From Arthrobacter sp. H20 (GTDB lineage: Bacteria > Actinomycetota > Actinomycetes > Actinomycetales > Micrococcaceae): a DNA stretch of 32,730 nt. Position numbers and translations under genes: made by a program. Below the pieces are notes generated by a model. It had not been told where the DNA came from and did no database searches. It worked only from the letters and a program-made list of their open reading frames with translations. Positions 8,216 to 24,108 of the stretch are shown in pieces. The stretch spans positions 44,554-77,283 of the forward strand of contig NZ_KI914714.1 in the NCBI RefSeq assembly GCF_000520515.1, read 5' to 3'. Numbering within the stretch: the first letter of the stretch is position 1; every line of letters begins with the position of its first letter.

Positions 8216-8292
8216 GCCTCTGTAGCTCAGTAGGATAGAGCGTCCCTCTCCTAAAGGGAAGGTCGTCGGTTCGATTCCGGCCAGGGGCACCA
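8216..8292 (+). tRNA. tRNA-Arg(CCU)
   Basis: A complete cloverleaf can be folded. Acceptor GCCTCTG/CAGGGGC, D-arm GCTC/GAGC, anticodon stem TCCCT/AGGGA with loop CTCCTAA, T-arm GTCGG-TTCGATT-CCGGC, then discriminator A and an encoded CCA (8290-8292). The anticodon CCT (8250-8252) reads AGG, a rare arginine codon in high-GC genomes. No integrase or attachment-site duplication is visible beside it. Confidence 0.97.
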
Positions 8293-16285: not shown

Positions 16286-17125
16286 CTAGGCAGCGATCCG
16301 CTGCGGGTGCGTGTAGCAGTTCAATGAGGCGCCGCGGCTGAAGCCGACCAGAGTGATGCCGGTTTCCTCGGCCAGGTCGGCAGCCAATGACGAGGGCGCG
16401 CTGACGGCCGACAGGACGGGGATCCCTGCGAGCTGTGCCTTCTGCACCAGTTCAAAGGAGGCCCTGCCCGACACTTGCAGAATGGTCCCCTTCAGTGGCA
16501 GCATCCCTTCACGCAGTGCCCAGCCCACCACCTTGTCGACGGCGTTGTGCCGGCCCACGTCCTCACGAAGGCACAGTAGTTCGCCGTCGCGGGTGAACAG
16601 TCCCGCCGCGTGGACGCCACCGGTGCTGTCGAAGAGCTTCTGCGATTCGCGCAACCGGTCGGGCAGCCCGGCGAGTGCCGGGAGCGTGACCTGGGCGGCG
16701 TCGTCGTGGACGTCGAAGCGGGAGGACTTACGCACTGCGTCGATGGACGCGGTGCCGCAGATCCCACACGAACTGGACGTATAGACGTGCCGTTCCATAG
16801 TGGTGTCCGGCAGCGCCACATCGGGTCTGAGCTGGGATTCCACCACGTTGAACGTCTGCTGTCCGGCGTCGTCCACCCCGGCACAGTAACGGAGGCTGAT
16901 CAGCTGCCCCGGCTCCCAGATAATCCCCTCTGACACCAGGAACCCTGCCACCAGATCGAAGTCATCGCCGGGTGTGCGCATAGTCACAGAGAAGGACTTC
17001 GAGCCCAGCCGGATTTCCAGCGGTTCCTCACCGGCAAGGATATCTTCGCGTCGGCTGGTGCCATTTTCTGTTGCGCCGACCCGGAACCGGGTGATTTGGC
17101 GGCGCTGGGAAACGCGCTTCTTCAA
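16286..17125 (-). CDS. fdhD: Formate dehydrogenase accessory sulfurtransferase FdhD
   Basis: 279 aa from TTG 17125. FdhD moves sulfur from a cysteine desulfurase to the molybdenum cofactor before it enters formate dehydrogenase. Seen: EEPLEIRL near residue 33, TPGDDFDLVAGFLVSEGII, the catalytic CxxC in SSSCGICGTAS (Cys120 and Cys123), GGVHAAGLF, REDVGRHNAVDKVVGW and SGRASFELVQKA. The TTG start has a perfect AGGAGT 5 nt upstream and gives KKRVSQRRQITRF, the usual FdhD opening; the longer upstream reading frame lacks signals. It is the last gene of the Moco cluster, about 97 bp after moeA. No formate dehydrogenase is in the window. Confidence 0.95.
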   Translation of the reverse strand: MKKRVSQRRQITRFRVGATENGTSRREDILAGEEPLEIRLGSKSFSVTMRTPGDDFDLVAGFLVSEGIIWEPGQLISLRYCAGVDDAGQQTFNVVESQLRPDVALPDTTMERHVYTSSSCGICGTASIDAVRKSSRFDVHDDAAQVTLPALAGLPDRLRESQKLFDSTGGVHAAGLFTRDGELLCLREDVGRHNAVDKVVGWALREGMLPLKGTILQVSGRASFELVQKAQLAGIPVLSAVSAPSSLAADLAEETGITLVGFSRGASLNCYTHPQRIAA

Positions 17126-17222
17126 TGTGCACTCCTGAAATCGTCCTACGACGAGACTAGTGGAATTCTGACCCGGGGATGTGATGGCTGCGGCGACTCG
17201 CACGCCAGAGGGTACGAAGGAA

Positions 17223-18527
17223 CTAGCTGCTCCACGGCAGGCGGAAAGACTGCAGGCGGTCTCCAGCAACGCAGCCCTGAGCGGGGACCACCATCACGCC
17301 ACTTGCGGAGGCCAGGCCGCGCAACATGCCGGAGCGCTGGTGCGTTGCCGCCACCGCCCGCCCGGATTCCAGCCGGTACGGCACCAACCGACTCCGCCCA
17401 GACAGCTGACCAAAGTCTTCCCCAACAGTTGTTTCCTCGGTCTCGGGAAACGCGGCGCCGCGCAATCCGGCGAGCAGGGGACCAACGACTGTGAACATTG
17501 CCATCATCGCCGCCAACGGATTTCCGGGGAGCCCTACCAGGAAACGGCCGTCCTGAAGCCGGGCGAGCAACGTCGGGTGGCCGGGCCGCATGGCGACGCC
17601 GTCGATGATGAATTCCGCCTCGAGTGTCTCCAACGCCCGCCTGATGTGATCGGCTGAGGAGCTTCCGGTCCCACCGGTGGTGATCAATACGTCCCCTGAC
17701 GCGCGGGACAAGGACAGCTCGTCGAGCGCCTCAGCGCTGATAGCGGCGACGACGTCGTCGAGGTCGTCTTTCGCGCGGCCAAGAGTGTCGACGTGCCCAC
17801 CCATCATCTGGACGAGCCCGGGGAGTTGCGGTCCGAAGGTGTCACGGACCTGCCCAGGCTCGGGCAGCCCGGCTTCAATGACCTCGTCGCCGGTCAGCAG
17901 CAGGGAGATGCGAGGCGCACGCAGCACCGGAAGCGTGTCGTAACCACAGACTGCGGCAAGGGCGATCTGCGCCGGGTTCAGCGTCACGTTCGCGGGGATG
18001 GTTTCGCTGCCCTCAGACGCTTCTTCTCCAGCAGGCCTGATGTGTTCCTGTGCGCCGGGCTCATCGGGACGGGCGCGATCGTTGCGGTCGAGCTGGACGC
18101 CGCGCACGGCGCCGTGTTCCATCCGCAGGATTCCTGTGGTTCCCTCAGGCACTACCCCACCGGTCAGGATGAACGTGGCCTCGCCGAGGGCGAGTGGCCC
18201 GGCGCCGGAATCACGATGCGGTGCGCTGCGCTGCCACTGATGTTCCCGCCTGGGTGCGTGACTGACCAGTTGCCACGGCGGCTGCCCGTTGACGGCCCAG
18301 CCGTCCATGGCTGACGATGCGTAGTGCGGGATGGCCTGCAGCGCCCTGACCGGCTCGGCAAGCGTCTCTCCAAGGGCCTCCGAGAGCGGAACAATCTGGT
18401 GTACCAGAGGGGTGCCGGCGTCGTAGGCTGCCCGCCGCGCCTGCTCCCAGCCGAGATTTCGCCCGGCAGGAGAACCGTTCAGGGGAGTTTCATCGGCTGT
18501 CATATCGGTCGAACTCGCCTCGTTCAC
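17223..18527 (-). CDS. moeA: Molybdopterin molybdenumtransferase MoeA
   Basis: 434 aa. MoeA inserts molybdate into adenylated molybdopterin. Motifs: PHYASSAMDGWAV near residues 67-79, TGGVVPEGTTGILRMEHG, the MoCF-binding-domain LLLTGDEVIEAG, TTGGTGSSSADH (relatives usually have SGGVSVGxxD, so this loop is variant) and GLPGNPLAAMMAMF near 340. The C-terminal domain IV is present (SGRSRLVPYRLESGR, ASASGVMVVP). A region near residues 145-170 is rich in charged residues and may be an insertion. The GTG at 18527 overlaps the stop of the DUF6457 gene in a GTGA tetranucleotide, so translation is likely coupled; an ATG at 18503 is the alternative start. Confidence 0.94.
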   Translation of the reverse strand: MNEASSTDMTADETPLNGSPAGRNLGWEQARRAAYDAGTPLVHQIVPLSEALGETLAEPVRALQAIPHYASSAMDGWAVNGQPPWQLVSHAPRREHQWQRSAPHRDSGAGPLALGEATFILTGGVVPEGTTGILRMEHGAVRGVQLDRNDRARPDEPGAQEHIRPAGEEASEGSETIPANVTLNPAQIALAAVCGYDTLPVLRAPRISLLLTGDEVIEAGLPEPGQVRDTFGPQLPGLVQMMGGHVDTLGRAKDDLDDVVAAISAEALDELSLSRASGDVLITTGGTGSSSADHIRRALETLEAEFIIDGVAMRPGHPTLLARLQDGRFLVGLPGNPLAAMMAMFTVVGPLLAGLRGAAFPETEETTVGEDFGQLSGRSRLVPYRLESGRAVAATHQRSGMLRGLASASGVMVVPAQGCVAGDRLQSFRLPWSS

Positions 18528-18820
18528 GAGGCGTCCGTCGACGAGGGACCGGCGGCGTCCTCAGTTGGGCATTGGCGACGGGCAGCCTCGATCGCTGACT
18601 CCATCGCCACCGTTTCGGTGGCCTGCTGGCTGGCGACGGCAAGACCCGCCGCGTACCCAGCAATAAAGGTGGTCAGCGGCGCTGCTGGGCGAACAACTGA
18701 GTGGGCTGCGTCCCCGGCGAGGGACAGGATGTCATCGATATCGATTGTTGTGCCCTGGAGTTCGAAGGCCTCAAGGAGTTGGGCGCTCCATTCCTGAAGG
18801 ATCTGGTCCTGCTTTGTCAT
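18524..18820 (-). CDS. DUF6457 protein in the molybdenum-cofactor cluster
   Basis: 98 aa. Mostly helical, acidic, with an N-terminal W-x-x-x-L-x-x-A-F motif (EWSAQLLEAFEL), then DIDDILSLAGDAAHSVVRPAAPLTTFIAGYAAGLA near residues 27-60. This matches DUF6457 proteins as I remember them, found beside or fused to MobA-like proteins in actinobacteria. The central segment is Ala/Gly-rich and hydrophobic but does not look like a membrane anchor. ATG 18820 has AGGAG 6 nt upstream. It begins 15 bp after mobA and ends inside the moeA start. The role is unknown; a partner or stabiliser of MobA or MoeA is an inference from context. Confidence 0.8.
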   Translation of the reverse strand: MTKQDQILQEWSAQLLEAFELQGTTIDIDDILSLAGDAAHSVVRPAAPLTTFIAGYAAGLAVASQQATETVAMESAIEAARRQCPTEDAAGPSSTDAS

Positions 18821-18835
18821 TGCTGCTCCTAAAAT

Positions 18836-19474
18836 TTAGGTCGGTGCTGCGCCTGAGACACCGAGGTTCTGGGCGTCAGCCCACGTGTCAACGTCAGCTG
18901 TACTCCCCTGCGGCACGTCGATTGCTCTCCACTGCACCCTAGCAAGGAGAGCCTTCATCGATAGATTCTGTACCCCGCCGGAGCTCTCTACCACTTCAAT
19001 CGCCGTGCGGAGGGCAGCCAGACTGTACACGGCCGCCAACGGCTGGTCCCGCTCCCCGTCGTGGGCCAGCACTGAATAGCCGGGGTCCTCCGCTACGGCT
19101 GCGAGAAGCTCAGGTATCGCGGCAGCGATGCGGGGCATATCGCAGGCGAGAACCAGCAGCCACTGCGTGGCGTCCTGCGCCAGATGGTCGACGGCGGCGG
19201 CAAGTGCAGCGGCTGGCCCACCAAAGCGAGGGGATTCGCTGACAAATTCCCGGCCACCCACCCCAGACCCAGCTCCTGCAGAGTCACCCTGGTCTTCATC
19301 GCTGGCCGGTCCGACCACCACAACTCTCTTCGCTGCGCCAGCCGCCTGACATGCGAGATCGAGCAGGGTGTGGCCGTCCAGCCGCAGCCCCGCTTTGGGG
19401 GTGCCACCGAGCCGTGATGATCGACCACCTGAGAGCACCACTGCGTTGAAGTCGACCGATTCCCACCTGCTCAA
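18836..19474 (-). CDS. mobA: MobA-like molybdopterin guanylyl/cytidylyltransferase
   Basis: About 212 aa. An NTP-transferase domain that attaches a nucleotide to the molybdenum cofactor. Seen: the NAVVLSGGRSSRLGGTPKA nucleotide loop (family LAGGxSxRxGxxK), PRFGGPAAALAAAV, the metal-binding LACDMPRI and a closing DVDTWADAQNLG. The start is ambiguous: TTG 19474 overlaps the HNH stop (TTGA) and has GGAGAG 6 nt upstream; GTG 19507 is also in frame and would overlap the HNH gene by 37 nt. Whether it makes MGD or MCD cannot be told. The loop near residues 60-80 (SAGAGSGVGG) is longer than usual. Confidence 0.88.
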   Translation of the reverse strand: MSRWESVDFNAVVLSGGRSSRLGGTPKAGLRLDGHTLLDLACQAAGAAKRVVVVGPASDEDQGDSAGAGSGVGGREFVSESPRFGGPAAALAAAVDHLAQDATQWLLVLACDMPRIAAAIPELLAAVAEDPGYSVLAHDGERDQPLAAVYSLAALRTAIEVVESSGGVQNLSMKALLARVQWRAIDVPQGSTADVDTWADAQNLGVSGAAPT

Positions 19475-19971
19475 GCGGCGCTCTCCGACCGGATGAAAGC
19501 GCTCCACTGCGGCGCAGGCTTCTCAATTTCCCGAAAATGGTGCATTCCGCCGCGTGGCGGCTGGGGGGTGGACCGCAGCCGCCAGCCCAGTGCGGCGAGC
19601 GTCTTGTCACCCTTGTCATGGTTGCAGGTGAGGCAGCAGGCAACGAGATTTTCCCAACTGGAGTCTCCCCCGCGGGACCGGGGATACACGTGATCGATGG
19701 TGGAGGCGCTCTTTCCACAGTAGGCACAGCGATGGTTATCCCGCCGCAGCACACCCCGACGGGTGACGACCACGCTGTGGCGGTAGGGAAGCTTCACATA
19801 CCGGTTCAACAGGATGACCGATGGGCGAGAGAGGATTTCATTGGGTCCAATCACCGGATCCTCCCCTTCAGCGACGACGCTTGCCTTTCCCGCCAGCACA
19901 AGGACCAGCGCCCGGCGGAAGGTCACTACCGCCAGCGGCTCATATCCAGCATTCAGAACGAGAGTGCGCAT
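19471..19971 (-). CDS. HNH endonuclease domain protein
   Basis: 166 aa from ATG 19971 (AAGGGG 7 nt upstream), which gives the usual opening MRTLVLNAGYEPLAVVTFRR. A second ATG lies two codons earlier. The C-terminal HNH fold has zinc ligands CAYCG and CLTCNH with IDHVYPRSRGGDSSWENLV between them; the H and N catalytic positions are intact. The family is conserved in actinobacteria as a lone chromosomal gene; biological substrate unknown. It is not flanked by intron or intein sequence. The stop overlaps the mobA start, so it may be the first gene of the Moco transcript. Confidence 0.9.
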   Translation of the reverse strand: MRTLVLNAGYEPLAVVTFRRALVLVLAGKASVVAEGEDPVIGPNEILSRPSVILLNRYVKLPYRHSVVVTRRGVLRRDNHRCAYCGKSASTIDHVYPRSRGGDSSWENLVACCLTCNHDKGDKTLAALGWRLRSTPQPPRGGMHHFREIEKPAPQWSAFIRSESAA

Positions 19972-20127
19972 GCACATTCCCCTTCGCCGACTCCAGGCCT
20001 GCATCCTCGTGGTGACTGAATACAGGACTACAACTGACTTACTAAAAGCAAGGGTAGTTCGATCGATGCTTCGTTAGCTAATCCAGCGCTGGAGCGCCAA
20101 CGCGTGTCGCGGGAGGATGGACCAGAC

Positions 20128-20169
20128 GCACACAGGCCCGGAGGATCAAGATCCTCCGGGCCTGTGTGC
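20128..20169. terminator. 20-bp perfect hairpin downstream of the NlpC/P60 pair
   Basis: Arms 20128-20147 (beginning GCACACAGGCCCGGAGG) and 20150-20169 are exact reverse complements around AA. It lies 16 bp after the stop of the second NlpC/P60 gene and about 157 bp before the HNH start. There is no U-run on the minus strand; a T-rich stretch follows on the plus strand. Likely a strong U-less terminator or 3'-end structure. The rest of the 19972-20184 gap shows no gene. Confidence 0.7.
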
Positions 20170-20184
20170 TGAAACGTTTGAGTT

Positions 20185-21090
20185 TTAGCCGCCGACGCGA
20201 ATGAAGACCGGCCCCGACCCGAGATCCGCTGGGGCTACGACCGTCTGGTTGCCGTTGAATCCGCCATGCACTGCCTTGCCCCCACCAATGTAGACGGCAA
20301 TGTGGGCTACGCCGGCGCCGCCGTCGGCGTAGTAGATCAGGTCGCCTGGGATAGCTTCGCCGGCGCCGACTGTGCGTCCAAGCGACAGGTATCCGGCGGG
20401 CCAACCGTGGAAGTTGATCCCGGCTGCGGCGAGAGAGTTGCTGACCAATCGGGTGCAGTCCTGGGTCACCCCGAGTTGACCCTGAGCTGCTGCAGCAATC
20501 GTGGCCGCCACGCCTGAGGATACTTCCGGCGCTTCCTGCGCAACTGGTGCCTCGGCTGCCGGGGCCGCAGTGACAGCCTGCACGTCAACGACCTGCTCAG
20601 CAACTACTGCCGGGGCCACGGTGACCTCTTCAGTCACTGCTGGTTCGGCGACAGGAACTTCAGTCACTGCTGGTTCGGCGACAGGAACCTCGACTGGAGC
20701 TTCGACGATCTCGACCACAGTCTCTGCCTGCACCGTGACCGCTGGCGCCTCGACAACTGCTGGCACCTCGACAACTGCTGGTGCGGCTACAGCCTTGACC
20801 GGGGTGCGGTTGAAGGCTACCTCGGCATCAGCGGACGCCTCGACAGTTGCTGGAGTGGCCTGAATCTCAAGCGTCGAGGTGAGGATGGTGCGTTCAGCAG
20901 ATTCCAGGGAGAGATCAGCAGCGTTGGCCGATACCCCGCCGGTGAGCACCAGACCCGAGGCCGCAGCAATGACTGCCGCCTGGCGACCAACGCCGCCGGC
21001 GTTCTCGGTCACTGCCTTGGCCAAGGCCGAGAAGTTGGTGGTGTGGCGCTTGTCAGCGCGGTGACGTGCGATAGCTACAGGTGTTGTCAT
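20185..21090 (-). CDS. Secreted NlpC/P60 cell-wall peptidase, paralogue 1
   Basis: 301 aa from ATG 21090 (GGAG 9 nt upstream). Residues 1-35 are a long basic n-region; residues 36-52 are hydrophobic (GRQAAVIAAASGLVLTGG) and SANA-A near 55-59 is a likely signal-peptidase site. A low-complexity Val/Pro/Ala/Glu region follows (about 85-190) with tandem repeats, probably spanning the wall. The NlpC/P60 domain (about 195-301) has Cys212 in TQDCTRLV, His263 in VAHIAVYIG and His275 in AVHGG as the catalytic set; it cuts peptide stems of peptidoglycan. The usual WGG-x-FDCSG opening is replaced by LGVTQDCT. It starts 29 bp after paralogue 2, so it shares that transcript and its riboswitch. Confidence 0.9.
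   Translation of the reverse strand: MTTPVAIARHRADKRHTTNFSALAKAVTENAGGVGRQAAVIAAASGLVLTGGVSANAADLSLESAERTILTSTLEIQATPATVEASADAEVAFNRTPVKAVAAPAVVEVPAVVEAPAVTVQAETVVEIVEAPVEVPVAEPAVTEVPVAEPAVTEEVTVAPAVVAEQVVDVQAVTAAPAAEAPVAQEAPEVSSGVAATIAAAAQGQLGVTQDCTRLVSNSLAAAGINFHGWPAGYLSLGRTVGAGEAIPGDLIYYADGGAGVAHIAVYIGGGKAVHGGFNGNQTVVAPADLGSGPVFIRVGG
20631..20690. repeat. 30-bp direct tandem repeat inside the NlpC/P60 gene
   Basis: Two adjacent 30-bp copies (20631-20660 and 20661-20690) differing by a single base. They encode VPVAEPAVTE twice in the Pro/Val linker. Such repeats expand and contract by slippage without breaking the frame. Confidence 0.9.
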
Positions 21091-21119
21091 TCTTGCGTTC
21101 TCCAAAGTTTGGGGTGGGT

Positions 21120-21989
21120 TCAGCTAACGCGAACGAAGCTGGCGCCGGGAAGGTCTGAGAGGGAGTGCAGGTCAGTGTTCATGCCGTTGAGGCCACCGCT
21201 GATGACCTGGCCGTTGCCGACGTAGATCGCGACGTGGCCGCCGGTGATCACGAGATCGCCCGCCGCGGGAGATCCAACAACAGCGCCAAAGGCGAAGAAG
21301 TCTCCCGGGGCGATATCGCCGACCGAGATGCCTACTGAGCGCAGCGCCTTCTCCACCATGGCTGTGCAATCCTGTGCCACGCCAATCTGGGAGTAAGCAG
21401 ATCCCACGAGGCCGGCGGCGATGTGGCCGGACGGCGCCGCGGGTGCTGGCTTCTGCGCGGCGGGCGCTGTGGCTGCGACGGGCACTGGGGCTGCGGCGGG
21501 CACTGGGGCTGCGACGGGCGCTGGGACTGCAGCGGGCGCTGGCGCCGGAGCGACAGGGGCCTCGGCGGGAGCCGGGGCGACCTCGACTGCCTCCTGCACT
21601 GCGGGCTCAACGACTGGCTCAGCGGCCGGAGCCACTGGGCCGACGACGTCGGCCTGCACCGCTACCACTGGGGCAACCTTTACCTCGGCTGGCGTAGCCG
21701 AGACGGCCGCGCGGTCGAAGGTGATTTCGGCGGTGGCGGGCGCGCTGACGGCATCAGCGGTGACAGCAATTGAGTTCAGGGGGGTGGAGAGCTGTACAAC
21801 GCGCTCTGACTCACCAATCCCGTGTGCTGGCAGTCCAGCGGTCAGGACGAGTCCTGAAGCGGCGACAATGACCGCGGCCTGGCGGCCCACTGATCCAGCG
21901 TTTGAGGAGACGGCGGCTGAGATGGCCTTCAGCGGACTGGTCTGAGTGCGGACTGCCCTGTGGCGGCCCAGCGAAGAGCTAGTTGACAC
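21120..21989 (-). CDS. Secreted NlpC/P60 cell-wall peptidase, paralogue 2
   Basis: 289 aa from GTG 21989 (GAGAGG 9 nt upstream). The same frame stays open through the riboswitch up to 22136, but that stretch is aptamer RNA. Layout mirrors paralogue 1: basic n-region to residue 30, hydrophobic SVGRQAAVIVAASGLVLTAG near 33-52, putative cleavage after PAHG, a long Ala/Pro/Val linker (about 115-185) and an NlpC/P60 domain with Cys208 in AQDCTAMV and His252 in GGHVAIYVG. The third catalytic His of paralogue 1 is Ser264 here (VISGG), so activity may be reduced or rely on another residue. It is the first gene after the second riboswitch. Confidence 0.9.
   Translation of the reverse strand: MSTSSSLGRHRAVRTQTSPLKAISAAVSSNAGSVGRQAAVIVAASGLVLTAGLPAHGIGESERVVQLSTPLNSIAVTADAVSAPATAEITFDRAAVSATPAEVKVAPVVAVQADVVGPVAPAAEPVVEPAVQEAVEVAPAPAEAPVAPAPAPAAVPAPVAAPVPAAAPVPVAATAPAAQKPAPAAPSGHIAAGLVGSAYSQIGVAQDCTAMVEKALRSVGISVGDIAPGDFFAFGAVVGSPAAGDLVITGGHVAIYVGNGQVISGGLNGMNTDLHSLSDLPGASFVRVS
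21472..21543. repeat. Four imperfect 18-bp repeats in NlpC/P60 paralogue 2
   Basis: Four consecutive 18-bp units, consensus GCTGCGACGGGCACTGGG on the plus strand, encode the Ala/Pro/Val linker (PVAAPVPAAAPVPVAA) between signal peptide and catalytic domain. Confidence 0.8.
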
Positions 21990-22010
21990 GTTGGATTGCC
22001 TCTCCCAATT

Positions 22011-22152
22011 GCCTGCGAGGTGAGCTGTCGGATTCGGATGGGAGTCACCCGGCCGTGTAGTTCCTCCTGGAAGGACACGACTTAACCCCAAGGATTTCTT
22101 GCGAAATCCACTAATTGGTTCCCCCGCCTCTGCCATGCGAAATGTGCGAACG
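22011..22152 (-). promoter_or_regulatory. c-di-AMP riboswitch (ydaO/yuaA type) before the NlpC/P60 pair
   Basis: Read on the minus strand, the leader has the conserved elements of the ydaO-yuaA aptamer in order: GGCAGAGGCGGGGGAACCAA, a hairpin, TTGGGGTTAAGTC, a second arm ending CCGGGTGACTCCC, and the diagnostic 3' block CGAATCCGACAGCTCACC followed by TCGCAGGC. AACCAA and TTGGGGTT can pair. This class senses cyclic di-AMP and in actinobacteria is known before cell-wall hydrolase and Rpf genes. The aptamer ends 21 nt before the GTG, with the ribosome-binding site in that gap, so a classic terminator switch downstream does not fit. Boundaries are approximate. Confidence 0.85.
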
Positions 22153-22191
22153 GACCTCGGGCAGTGGCAGAGCTAGGCGATCTACTCGAGG

Positions 22192-22217
22192 GTGCCAAAC
22201 CTATTAGAATTTGGCAC
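22192..22217 (-). terminator. Hairpin between the M23 gene and the NlpC/P60 riboswitch
   Basis: GTGCCAAA-(10 nt)-TTTGGCAC, perfect 8-bp arms, 66-91 nt after the M23 stop. No U-run. Possible M23 terminator. Its loop holds TCTAAT on the minus strand, which with TTGTAC 19 bp upstream (22233-22228) could be the NlpC/P60 promoter, so the two roles may overlap. Confidence 0.4.
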
Positions 22218-22248
22218 GAGGATGACGGTACAACAGATTGACCACAAT

Positions 22249-22264
22249 GTCACATTCCGGTCAC
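22249..22264 (-). promoter_or_regulatory. GTGAC direct repeat, 11-bp period
   Basis: Minus strand GTGAC-N6-GTGAC upstream of the NlpC/P60 riboswitch. Direct repeats one helical turn apart are the usual sites of OmpR-family regulators; MtrA of actinobacteria controls cell-wall hydrolases and recognises related GT(N)AC repeats. Binding is inferred. Confidence 0.35.
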
Positions 22265-22282
22265 GGAACGGTGTGTCCTTGG

Positions 22283-23086
22283 TTACAGCCAGCCCATGGG
22301 ATCGACTGCCTGGCCGTCAACCATCACTTCAAAGTGCAGGTGACAGCCGGTTGAGGCTCCGGTGCTCCCGCTCTGCGCCACAAGGTCTCCGCGGTCCACT
22401 GACTGCCCCTCCTGTGCGCTGCCCGACGAGAGATGGTTGTAGGTGGTTTCCAGTCCGTTGCCGTGATCGATGACCACGCGGTTTCCTCCCCCATACGGGT
22501 GCCAGCCGGCAAAGGTGACAGTTCCGGACGCGGCGGCGAAGACTTCGGTACCGCAGGAGCTACTGAAGTCCTGACCGGAATGGAGCTCTCCACCCATACC
22601 GGTAATGGGGCTCACCCGGTAGCCGAACGGGGAGGTGATGACCAGCTCCTTCATCGGGGCTGACAGCGACCCCCTGGCGGCGGCGGGAACTGCGGCTGAG
22701 CCTGCTGCGGCCATGATCTCGGTGAGCTTGGCGTCAGCGTCGAAGGTGCTTTGCAATGCGGTGCGGCTGAAGTCGACCAGCGCAGCCTCGGGCACGCTAA
22801 TTTCCTGCGGAACGACAACTGCCTCAACGGTAGCTGTCGCCTCACCGGCGGCGGTGGCCGGGCCGTCAGTGGGTGCTGATGCCGCGGTGGTGGGTAGGGC
22901 AACTGTGAGAGCCAGGCCTGAGGCGGCTGCGGCGATGGCAACCTTCTGGCTTATCCCGGTCAGCGAGACGCGGCTCCCGGTCCGGGTGGGTCGGCGCCCT
23001 CGTTCTCGTCGCTGGGCATCCCGGGGACGGGCTGCAAGTACTGGGGCGCCGGCGCGGCGGCGTCCCGAAGCGTTGTGCTTCGACAA
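22283..23086 (-). CDS. Secreted M23-family metallopeptidase (LytM-type)
   Basis: 267 aa from TTG 23086 (GAGAGG 6 nt upstream); upstream in-frame codons belong to the riboswitch. A long Arg-rich n-region (residues 1-40) is followed by a hydrophobic segment near 47-65 (KVAIAAAASGLALTVA) and a likely cleavage near TAAS-A, so it is secreted or membrane-anchored. The C-terminal M23 domain starts near ITSPFGYRVSP; zinc and catalytic residues are His169 and Asp173 (HSGQD), His218 (NHLS) and His249/His251 (HLHFE). It should cleave peptidoglycan cross-bridges. All ligands are intact, so it is probably an enzyme and not only a scaffold. It has its own riboswitch. Confidence 0.93.
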   Translation of the reverse strand: MSKHNASGRRRAGAPVLAARPRDAQRRERGRRPTRTGSRVSLTGISQKVAIAAAASGLALTVALPTTAASAPTDGPATAAGEATATVEAVVVPQEISVPEAALVDFSRTALQSTFDADAKLTEIMAAAGSAAVPAAARGSLSAPMKELVITSPFGYRVSPITGMGGELHSGQDFSSSCGTEVFAAASGTVTFAGWHPYGGGNRVVIDHGNGLETTYNHLSSGSAQEGQSVDRGDLVAQSGSTGASTGCHLHFEVMVDGQAVDPMGWL

Positions 23087-23104
23087 TGAGTCCCTCTCGT
23101 ATAT

Positions 23105-23250
23105 GCCTGCGAAGTTAGCTGTCGGATTCGAGTTCGGGAAAAACTCGGCCCAGACCGGCCCCGCCAAAACGGTGCCGGATCAGGACTTCACCCCAAGATG
23201 GCATTTCAGCCACCGTCTAGTGGGTCCTCCGCCCCTGCCACGGGTTTCAC
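23105..23250 (-). promoter_or_regulatory. c-di-AMP riboswitch (ydaO/yuaA type) before the M23 gene
   Basis: This is the main content of the 314-bp gene-free stretch 23087-23400. On the minus strand: GGCAGGGGCGGAGGACCCAC, then CTTGGGGTGAAGTCC, a middle helix, and the 3' block CGAATCCGACAGCTAACT followed by TCGCAGGC. GGACCCA and TGGGGTGAA pair as in the ydaO-yuaA class, where the second riboswitch has AACCAA/TTGGGGTT, a compensatory difference. It ends about 18 nt before the TTG start. Upstream, TATCTAAT near 23290 on the minus strand may be its -10; no clear -35 was found. The 5' boundary is approximate. Confidence 0.88.
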
Positions 23251-23364
23251 TATCTACATCCACTGACAGGGTTAGGCGTGCGAATTAGATAACGCTGATG
23301 TATCAACGCCAGTTTTCCATTATCCGCGACCATAAGCAAAAGAGATCCGCTCGTTATCTTTTCC

Positions 23365-23373
23365 TGTGGATAA
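23365..23373. other. Single consensus DnaA box
   Basis: TGTGGATAA, the exact complement of TTATCCACA, in the gap between the DtxR-family gene and the M23 riboswitch. A lone copy, so not an origin; possibly chance or a DnaA regulatory site. Confidence 0.35.
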
Positions 23374-23400
23374 GCTGCGGCAACAGTGAGTTTTGGCGGC

Positions 23401-24108
23401 CTAGCCGGCCGCCGGAAGCACTGAGACGAAGACGTGCGCCGCGACTTCAGGTGGGAGCTCAAGGGCGCCGTCGATGCCCTCCACCCGTACCGACACGTAC
23501 TCCCCTGCCGCCTGCACGCTGATGATTGTTCCGGGCCTCAGCCCACCTTCGTCAAGCTGGGAAAGGAGCTCCGGGTCCACCTGGATGGGTTCCGCGAGCC
23601 GGACCAGGGTGATCACCGAGCCTTCAGTGTTGGGGCCTATCACCGACATGAGACTGCGCACACCATCGATGAAGTCTCCAGCGGGAGGACCACCCAGTGC
23701 TTCAAGCCCGGGGATAGGGTTGCCGTACGGCGATTCAGTGGGCTTTCCCAGCAGCTCATACAGGCGCTGTTCCACCCGTTCGCTCATCACATGCTCCCAG
23801 CGGCAGGCCTCCTCGTGGACGTAGGCCCAGTCAAGTCCGATCACGTCGGAGAGCAGACGTTCAGCGAGCCGGTGCTTCCGCATCACCCCGATGGCACGAC
23901 GTCGACCCAGGTCGGTGAATTCCAGGTGCCGGTCGCCGGAGACCACTACCAGCCCGTCGCGCTCCATCCGGCCAATGGTCTGCGAGACGGTTGGGCCTGA
24001 ATGGCGGAGACGTTCGGCGATCCGGGCACGGAGGGCAACGATGTTCTCCTCCTCCAGTTCCAAGATGGTCCGCAGATACATCTCAGTGGTATCGATGAGG
24101 TCCGTCAT
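23401..24108 (-). CDS. DtxR/IdeR-family iron-dependent repressor
   Basis: 235 aa, full three-domain length. Residues 1-73 are the winged helix (LRARIAERLRHSGPTVSQTIGRMERDGLV), 74-140 the dimerisation domain and about 150-235 the SH3-like FeoA-type domain. All DtxR metal ligands occur at the DtxR numbers: Met10, Cys102, Glu105, His106 (primary site) and His79, Glu83, His98 (ancillary). Met10 and Cys102 favour Fe2+ over Mn2+, so it should repress iron uptake and siderophore genes when iron is plentiful. ATG 24108 has TAGGAG 9 nt upstream. The 250-bp gap to serC holds its promoter; I saw only a half iron box there. No iron-uptake gene is adjacent. Confidence 0.92.
   Translation of the reverse strand: MTDLIDTTEMYLRTILELEEENIVALRARIAERLRHSGPTVSQTIGRMERDGLVVVSGDRHLEFTDLGRRRAIGVMRKHRLAERLLSDVIGLDWAYVHEEACRWEHVMSERVEQRLYELLGKPTESPYGNPIPGLEALGGPPAGDFIDGVRSLMSVIGPNTEGSVITLVRLAEPIQVDPELLSQLDEGGLRPGTIISVQAAGEYVSVRVEGIDGALELPPEVAAHVFVSVLPAAG

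Follow-up and report, generated by a model that had tools for sequence, protein, structure and literature searches.

Two putative c-di-AMP riboswitches precede neighbouring cell-wall hydrolase genes in Arthrobacter sp. H20

Control of cell-wall hydrolases by cyclic di-adenosine monophosphate (c-di-AMP) in actinobacteria is in print (PMC9960051, PMC10117811). In the closest described system, the nlpC gene (cg2402) of Corynebacterium glutamicum, the leader is reported to be an OFF switch that most likely acts on translation, with a pairing between CTCC and GGAG proposed (Reich et al., PMC9960051), and the gene is also reported to be under the control of MtrA (PMC3353115, PMC9960051). For Arthrobacter, we found no report of a c-di-AMP riboswitch in the open-licence literature. 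Here we analyzed a stretch of 32,730 nucleotides (nt) from Arthrobacter sp. H20, hereafter the window, in which one leader of this kind (switch 1) stands before an M23 peptidase gene and another (switch 2) before a pair of NlpC/P60 genes. Arthrobacter is a free-living soil genus, and the source genome is 94.6% complete. We consider it probable, at roughly three chances in four, that the two elements are c-di-AMP OFF-riboswitches of the ydaO/kimA class (Rfam family RF00379), each in a leader of its own, and that in each a pseudoknot masks the Shine-Dalgarno sequence and so blocks translation.

A first-pass annotation, made from the letters of the window, had assigned both leaders to the ydaO type and had named the actinobacterial precedent correctly. 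The assignment holds, and the result that was to refute it, no hit above threshold, did not occur: with cmscan against all of Rfam, switch 1 matched RF00379 at 67.9 bits (E 6.7e-14) and switch 2 at 62.1 bits (E 2.8e-12), both over the full model (1-134) and 24-30 bits above its gathering score of 38. The conserved blocks quoted in that annotation are all present on the minus strand, and a pattern for the conserved 3' core is matched with no substitutions in either leader. The 5' strand of helix P1, GCCTA, starts at 23277 in switch 1 and at 22178 in switch 2, the latter 5 bases before the cmscan start. Counted from the start of P1 through the Shine-Dalgarno sequence, the leaders are ~185 nt (switch 1) and ~180 nt (switch 2) long rather than the ~145 nt first given. 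The range first drawn (21120-23250) misses the 5'-most 27 nt of switch 1 and the whole of NlpC/P60 paralogue 1 (20185-21090). The P2 arms do differ between the switches (CCCUGUCA/UGGCAGGG vs. CUCUGCCA/UGGCAGAG), one pair having changes in both its bases and another in just one.

The genes behind the leaders are those first named, as Pfam confirms. The M23 translation carries HSGQD and HLH, matching HxxxD and HxH, which we take to be the motifs of M23 peptidases, and both NlpC/P60 translations carry QDCT followed by a histidine, presumably the catalytic cysteine and histidine of that family. Against the PF00877 cut-off of 23 bits, NlpC/P60 gene 2 (the first behind switch 2; hereafter NlpC 2) scores 26.5 and gene 1 (NlpC 1) scores 37.2. 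The gap between them is exactly 29 nt (21091-21119), as had been noted. The closest M23 and NlpC 2 proteins found, with 83 and 86% identity, come from a genome of the same genus, that of Arthrobacter sp. Bz4 (G005).

The crystallised ydaO RNA reportedly comes from T. tengcongensis. By our own reading, an 8-base loop in that RNA is complementary to its 3' tail, and the paper names a pseudoknot (PMC5393176); a review lists ydaO among the docking switches that occlude the ribosome site (PMC10907184). We therefore dropped the idea that the pseudoknot is new, since it is already part of the published ydaO fold. In the window the same loop-to-tail pairing is possible over 6 base pairs (bp) in switch 2 and, more weakly, over 4 bp in switch 1. 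In a first set of leaders, loop-tail pairing over 24 mutually distinct loops reached 14.19, compared with 12.13 ± 0.47 when loops and tails were re-dealt (0/2000 as high), and over 37 distinct loops it reached 14.19, compared with 12.18 (again 0/2000). When the windows were slid, |z| did not exceed 2.5 for loop windows elsewhere or 2.2 for tail windows past +6, while the site itself gave 3.8-6.2. We repeated the test on a second set, 70 leaders outside the genus, drawn from the 68 of 70 class-level loci that gave a core match (L163 gave none, and L205 is a filler stretch). With the same windows, its 39 distinct loops reached 13.76 compared with 11.58 ± 0.37 (z 5.9, 0/2000), with |z| up to 1.8 in other loop windows and 2.2 in other tail windows. 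Some leaders in both sets pair over 3-4 bases only. One class-level leader (L186) pairs UGUCGU with ACGACA, which is not Shine-Dalgarno-like and hints that the pairing is not merely one of purines with pyrimidines. This covariation in two leader sets supports the translational reading proposed for one C. glutamicum gene.

Within Arthrobacter, the strand that serves as the tail either coincides with the Shine-Dalgarno sequence or overlaps it. We collected leaders with the core pattern at up to five substitutions (158 matches, 117 distinct), and in 116 of the 117 an in-frame start codon lies within 60 nt of the aptamer, the first such start at a median of 19 nt. When c-di-AMP made by DisA is high, the ligand would close the aptamer, and the apical loop of the last hairpin would then pair with the strand directly 3' of P1, here the Shine-Dalgarno sequence itself (CUCCCA with UGGGAG in switch 2, UCCC with GGGA in switch 1). 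Ribosomes would thereby be kept from starting on the M23 and NlpC 2 messages, the OFF state; without ligand the Shine-Dalgarno sequence would be free and the hydrolases would be made. A promoter-level layer, probably MtrA, would act upstream of the switches. NlpC 1, probably co-transcribed with NlpC 2, would follow the switch only to the extent of translational coupling or of instability in the untranslated message. The sequence itself shows family membership, a possible pairing that covaries, the identities of the genes and the synteny; ligand binding, the OFF direction, action at the level of translation, MtrA binding, the promoters and co-transcription are inferred. That both switches function, as first proposed, appears likelier for switch 2 than for switch 1, because the pseudoknot of switch 1 is short.

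The genome has four RF00379 matches. Besides the two described here, one precedes a LysM-NlpC/P60 frame and another a second M23 frame, so that every leader found stands before an M23 or NlpC/P60 frame. A single gene with a diadenylate cyclase (DAC) domain (PF02457, E 3.0e-25, over the cut-off) is the predicted source of the ligand; by eye it is a disA-like frame directly behind a radA-like frame.

Tandem leaders are not peculiar to this species, because same-strand pairs of RF00379 matches within 3 kilobases (kb) occur in at least 11 genomes (G000, G002, G004, G005, G018, G022, G023, G025, G029, G041 and G052), with G041 and G052 belonging to other families. The family itself was matched in 49 of 57 genomes; these include 35 of the same genus, counting the window's own, and each of the 35 has 2-10 matches. 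In a class-level sample it was matched in 101 of 148 genomes. Three genomes (G015, G018 and G025) have 8, 10 and 9 matches, several of them on one contig, and in another order of the class (L173) two RF00379 leaders lie ~1 kb apart, each before a frame that is Rpf-like by motif. We compared 34 loci, the window and L035-L067. A DtxR-family gene lies upstream in 31 (exceptions L042, L059 and L065), and a leader stands before the NlpC frame in 33 (exception L059). The NlpC 2 frame of L059 is short. An M23 gene sits between the DtxR gene and the NlpC leader in 15 of the 34 loci and has its own leader in 10 of the 15; in L036, L042, L046, L049 and L061 no RF00379 leader was found before it, even at E 5. 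By eye, the stretch upstream of M23 in L042 looks like a piece of some other, unrelated gene, possibly brought there by an assembly join.

Where did the two leaders come from? We built a tree of the 117 distinct leaders (146 columns), in which 42 of 114 inner branches were unresolved and a long-branch warning fell at the M23 clade. Downstream genes were classed by motif. With tight motifs, eight leaders had no frame of 100 amino acids, and the remaining 109 divided into 69 NlpC, 20 M23 and 20 others, which by eye were NlpC variants, Rpf-like proteins, cut frames and wrong frames; the looser motifs used for the tree gave 79 NlpC, 21 M23 and 17 unclassed, all classes resting on motifs rather than Pfam. 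The 21 M23-classed leaders and three unclassed ones form one clade (99/95). The M23 label requires three changes on the tree compared with 19.7 in shuffles, none of 500 being as low. Switch 1 falls in the M23-leader clade, away from its neighbour, and switch 2 among the NlpC leaders; we therefore rejected local duplication of the leader, and with it the first-pass annotation's "duplicated control of neighbouring genes" in the sense of a local event. Most simply, an M23 gene and the leader belonging to it would have been copied together into the slot between the DtxR gene and the NlpC leader.

Each unit has an upstream region of its own, with promoter-like elements apparent in the gap between M23 and switch 2. 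There, each of 29 aligned loci (the 15 with M23 and 14 of the 15 without) shows GTGAC and a TAnnnT hexamer, and because they recur in both kinds of locus the NlpC unit probably has its own promoter, whether M23 is present or not. A strict sigma-70 consensus scan calls no promoter at the locus, so the promoters listed in Table 1 are drawn from conservation alone. Both leaders have a short hairpin directly before the aptamer. In loci with M23 the hairpin before aptamer 2 varies by compensatory changes, with A-U in the window, G-C in L050 and C-G in L036; where M23 is absent the hairpin has only 5 bp.

Upstream of the leaders we looked for an MtrA-type box, RTnAC-N6-RTnAC, a direct repeat of 11-bp period that follows the MtrA consensus reported for C. 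glutamicum and S. coelicolor (PMC3353115, PMC5650626). It is present upstream of 62 of 105 leaders, a mild thinning of the 117 in which many are still related, compared with 0.9 expected from shuffles and 0-6 at the other same-strand spacers from 0 to 15. On the antisense strand the counts were 72/105 at spacer 6 and up to 12 at other spacers, as expected of a near-symmetric pattern. Within the locus set, 29 of 45 stretches before leaders contain the box, compared with 46 of 1780 tiles of 260 nt away from leaders. In the window's genome it is exact at three of the four leaders; switch 2 matches the consensus exactly and switch 1 has one mismatch. As a class-wide rule the box is not supported, being found at 3 of 29 class-level leaders with enough upstream sequence (5/29 at spacer 5 and 3/29 at spacer 4). 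The genome encodes one MtrA (390.9 bits, above the curated cut-off of 300), and the frequency of the box suggests which transcription factor shares control. For MtrA and a c-di-AMP riboswitch at one gene, C. glutamicum was the only case found in the open-licence literature, judged largely by titles and abstracts. We tentatively suggest, giving it somewhat less than an even chance, that secreted wall hydrolases of Arthrobacter and its relatives in the Micrococcales are under a standing pair of locks, an MtrA-type box and a Shine-Dalgarno-masking switch, that is copied as a module together with the gene (an M23-type leader with M23, an NlpC-type leader with NlpC), and that at this locus the M23 copy is losing both locks in one lineage. 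If true, transcription of these enzymes would be set by osmotic or envelope state and their translation by c-di-AMP.

The switches might instead act on transcription: c-di-AMP would cause early termination (reported for S. coelicolor rpfA, PMC10117811) or pausing in the leader, and the loop-tail pairing would belong only to the tertiary fold of the aptamer. In favor of this, a U run may be missing from terminators in high-GC bacteria. The crystallised ydaO RNA does have the same loop-tail pseudoknot (PMC5393176), and the B. subtilis member of the class is reported to work through a terminator (PMC9960051). We nevertheless think transcriptional action quite unlikely in the window. No terminator-like site was found at 20000-23500, in a coarse scan for which shuffles average 2.1; the distance from aptamer to start codon is 18 and 21 nt, which leaves little room for a separate expression platform; and the mRNA of a C. 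glutamicum reporter is reported to be unchanged by c-di-AMP (PMC9960051). Masking of the Shine-Dalgarno sequence has its own difficulties. One paper reports that transcription ends prematurely at S. coelicolor rpfA (PMC10117811), though by another account that switch seems to control the initiation of translation (PMC8079986). The pairing strand of Streptomyces-like leaders (genus guessed) lies just 5' of the Shine-Dalgarno sequence and not on it, and occlusion there is therefore less direct. The switch 1 pseudoknot has only 4 bp, compared with 9-10 in seven of the eight orthologues folded other than that of Bz4, and the shuffles behind the pairing statistics thin out relatedness among leaders but do not remove it. 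P1, present in the minimum-energy folds of both aptamers alone, is absent from nested folds that include the tail: in switch 2 its 5' strand pairs with AGGC of the Shine-Dalgarno sequence, and in switch 1 it is lost. Nested-only folding cannot form a pseudoknot, and we gave these folds no weight either way. The NlpC pair of L059 has no leader by the core pattern or Rfam. Finally, no DhhP-type phosphodiesterase was found in the genome, where DHHA1 occurs only in a frame of 909 amino acids that is probably alaS; one PF01663 protein may be an AtaC-like substitute.

A second question is whether the locus is a single unit, in which one switch was locally duplicated and switch 2 sets both NlpC genes, so that one signal moves three hydrolases in step. 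The 29-nt gap in the window speaks for this, as does the spacing in relatives: an NlpC 1-like frame follows NlpC 2 by 20-33 nt in 23 of the 24 genus loci that have such a frame and by 71 nt in L045 (the junction scan returned no row for L059 and L064). We regard it as unlikely, however, since the leader tree sets M23 and NlpC leaders apart, NlpC 1 has its own GGAG before its ATG, and no NlpC 1-like frame was found behind the leader and NlpC 2 in several loci (L047, L055, L062 and L063). In C. glutamicum, moreover, only the first gene behind the switch is reported to have responded, and a second reporter did not (PMC9960051). By this analysis switch 2 need not control NlpC paralogue 1. The first-pass annotation is thus confirmed in what it observed and partly supported in its interpretation as a whole. 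It is also possible, if rather doubtful, that switch 1 is relaxing or decaying in this lineage, with the aptamer remaining while the Shine-Dalgarno coupling and the promoter box weaken. Among eight orthologous M23 leaders outside the window-Bz4 pair, the duplex has 9 bp in six and 10 bp in one (UUUUCUCAU with AUGAGAGAG and alike), and in the L020 orthologue another register scores best; the window and Bz4 pair only four bases (UCCC/GGGA), nearer the start codon, and lack the exact box that 8 of 10 switch 1 orthologues have. In Arthrobacter sp. 260 (L036) the stretch before M23 aligns to switch 1 at 184.5, compared with 54.3 ± 8.3 when shuffled, and has no RF00379 match even at E 5. The M23 frame behind this remnant of a decayed riboswitch opens at about 3138. 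Against relaxation, aptamer 1 is otherwise complete and scores above switch 2, and the UCCC loop and GGGA tail also occur in intact-looking leaders such as L103. The best duplex is weaker than that of the window's switch 1 (-7.8) in at least 12 of the 117 leaders, most of the 12 being likewise M23 leaders, and weaker than that of Bz4 (-6.5) in 7. Two adjoining switches of one class that differ in their pseudoknots, strong in one and weak in the other, lend themselves to the question of how pairing strength determines riboswitch output.

Table 1. Features of the two hydrolase units, in positions of the window.
Feature	Position	Strand	Basis
M23 peptidase gene, TTG start at 23086	22283..23086	-	PF01551 E 2.5e-31, above curated cut-off
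NlpC/P60 gene 2, GTG start at 21989	21120..21989	-	PF00877 E 6.4e-06, above curated cut-off
NlpC/P60 gene 1, ATG start at 21090, own GGAG site	20185..21090	-	PF00877 E 3.1e-09, above curated cut-off
Imperfect MtrA-type direct repeat (ATAAC-N6-ATCTC) upstream of switch 1, off consensus in its second half-site	23342..23357	-	
Putative -10-like GATAAT of the M23 unit	23319..23324	-	Alignment of 10 switch 1 leaders; not called by strict scan
5' hairpin before aptamer 1 (CGTTGA-TACA-TCAGCG)	23293..23308	-	Read by eye
c-di-AMP riboswitch aptamer 1, P1 to P1	23105..23277	-	RF00379 67.9 bits over 23089-23288, and fold
Switch 1 pseudoknot, loop strand UCCC	23136..23139	-	
Switch 1 pseudoknot, tail strand GGGA, overlapping Shine-Dalgarno	23091..23094	-	
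MtrA-type direct repeat GTGAC-N6-GTGAC upstream of switch 2	22249..22264	-	
Putative promoter-like GTGACA-N17-TACCGT of the NlpC unit	22225..22253	-	Recurring elements in relatives; not called by strict scan
5' hairpin before aptamer 2 (GTGCCAAA-N10-TTTGGCAC)	22192..22217	-	
c-di-AMP riboswitch aptamer 2, P1 to P1	22011..22178	-	RF00379 62.1 bits over 21995-22173, and fold
Switch 2 pseudoknot, loop strand CUCCCA	22039..22044	-	
Switch 2 pseudoknot, tail strand UGGGAG, part of Shine-Dalgarno GGGAGAGG	22002..22007	-	

Upstream of the M23 promoter, at 23365-23373, is a 9-mer (TTATCCACA) resembling a DnaA box by what we take to be the consensus. Of this stretch, TATCCACA is conserved in every one of the 10 switch 1 orthologues and recurs near the decayed L036 leader. 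Elsewhere in the window, frames that by eye are fdhD-, moeA- and mobA-like (molybdenum cofactor) lie at 16286-19507, near an HNH gene at 19471-20004, and the sole tRNA is a tRNA-Arg (CCT) at 8216-8292.

Both the elements at this locus and the genes they precede are thus of kinds already known, and the arrangement is real, conserved and largely ordinary. What this analysis adds is corrected boundaries, probably separate units, separate leader origins, replicated covariation, a frequent MtrA-type box and a possible loss of coupling. Compared with B. subtilis ydaO/kimA and the crystallised ydaO aptamer, the aptamer class and the loop-to-tail pseudoknot are the same (PMC9960051, PMC5393176), but the B. 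subtilis switch is reported to use a terminator platform and to serve genes for a potassium importer and other transporters (PMC9960051). The ydaO-like leaders of Streptomyces, such as that of rpfA, belong to the same RNA family and are likewise reported before wall hydrolases, several per genome; unlike in the window, the pairing strand of the Streptomyces-like leaders we sampled (genus guessed) lies 5' of the Shine-Dalgarno sequence. The window differs from C. glutamicum nlpC in having a second leader and an M23 gene directly upstream, with a promoter-like region for each unit, and in that no DhhP-type phosphodiesterase was found. In other respects that gene is the nearest counterpart: a ydaO-type leader before an NlpC/P60 gene, described as lacking a canonical terminator; a loop that could pair with the Shine-Dalgarno sequence, there CTCC with the GGAG of the ribosome site; MtrA reported among the regulators of the promoter; and a second nlpC-type gene in the operon.

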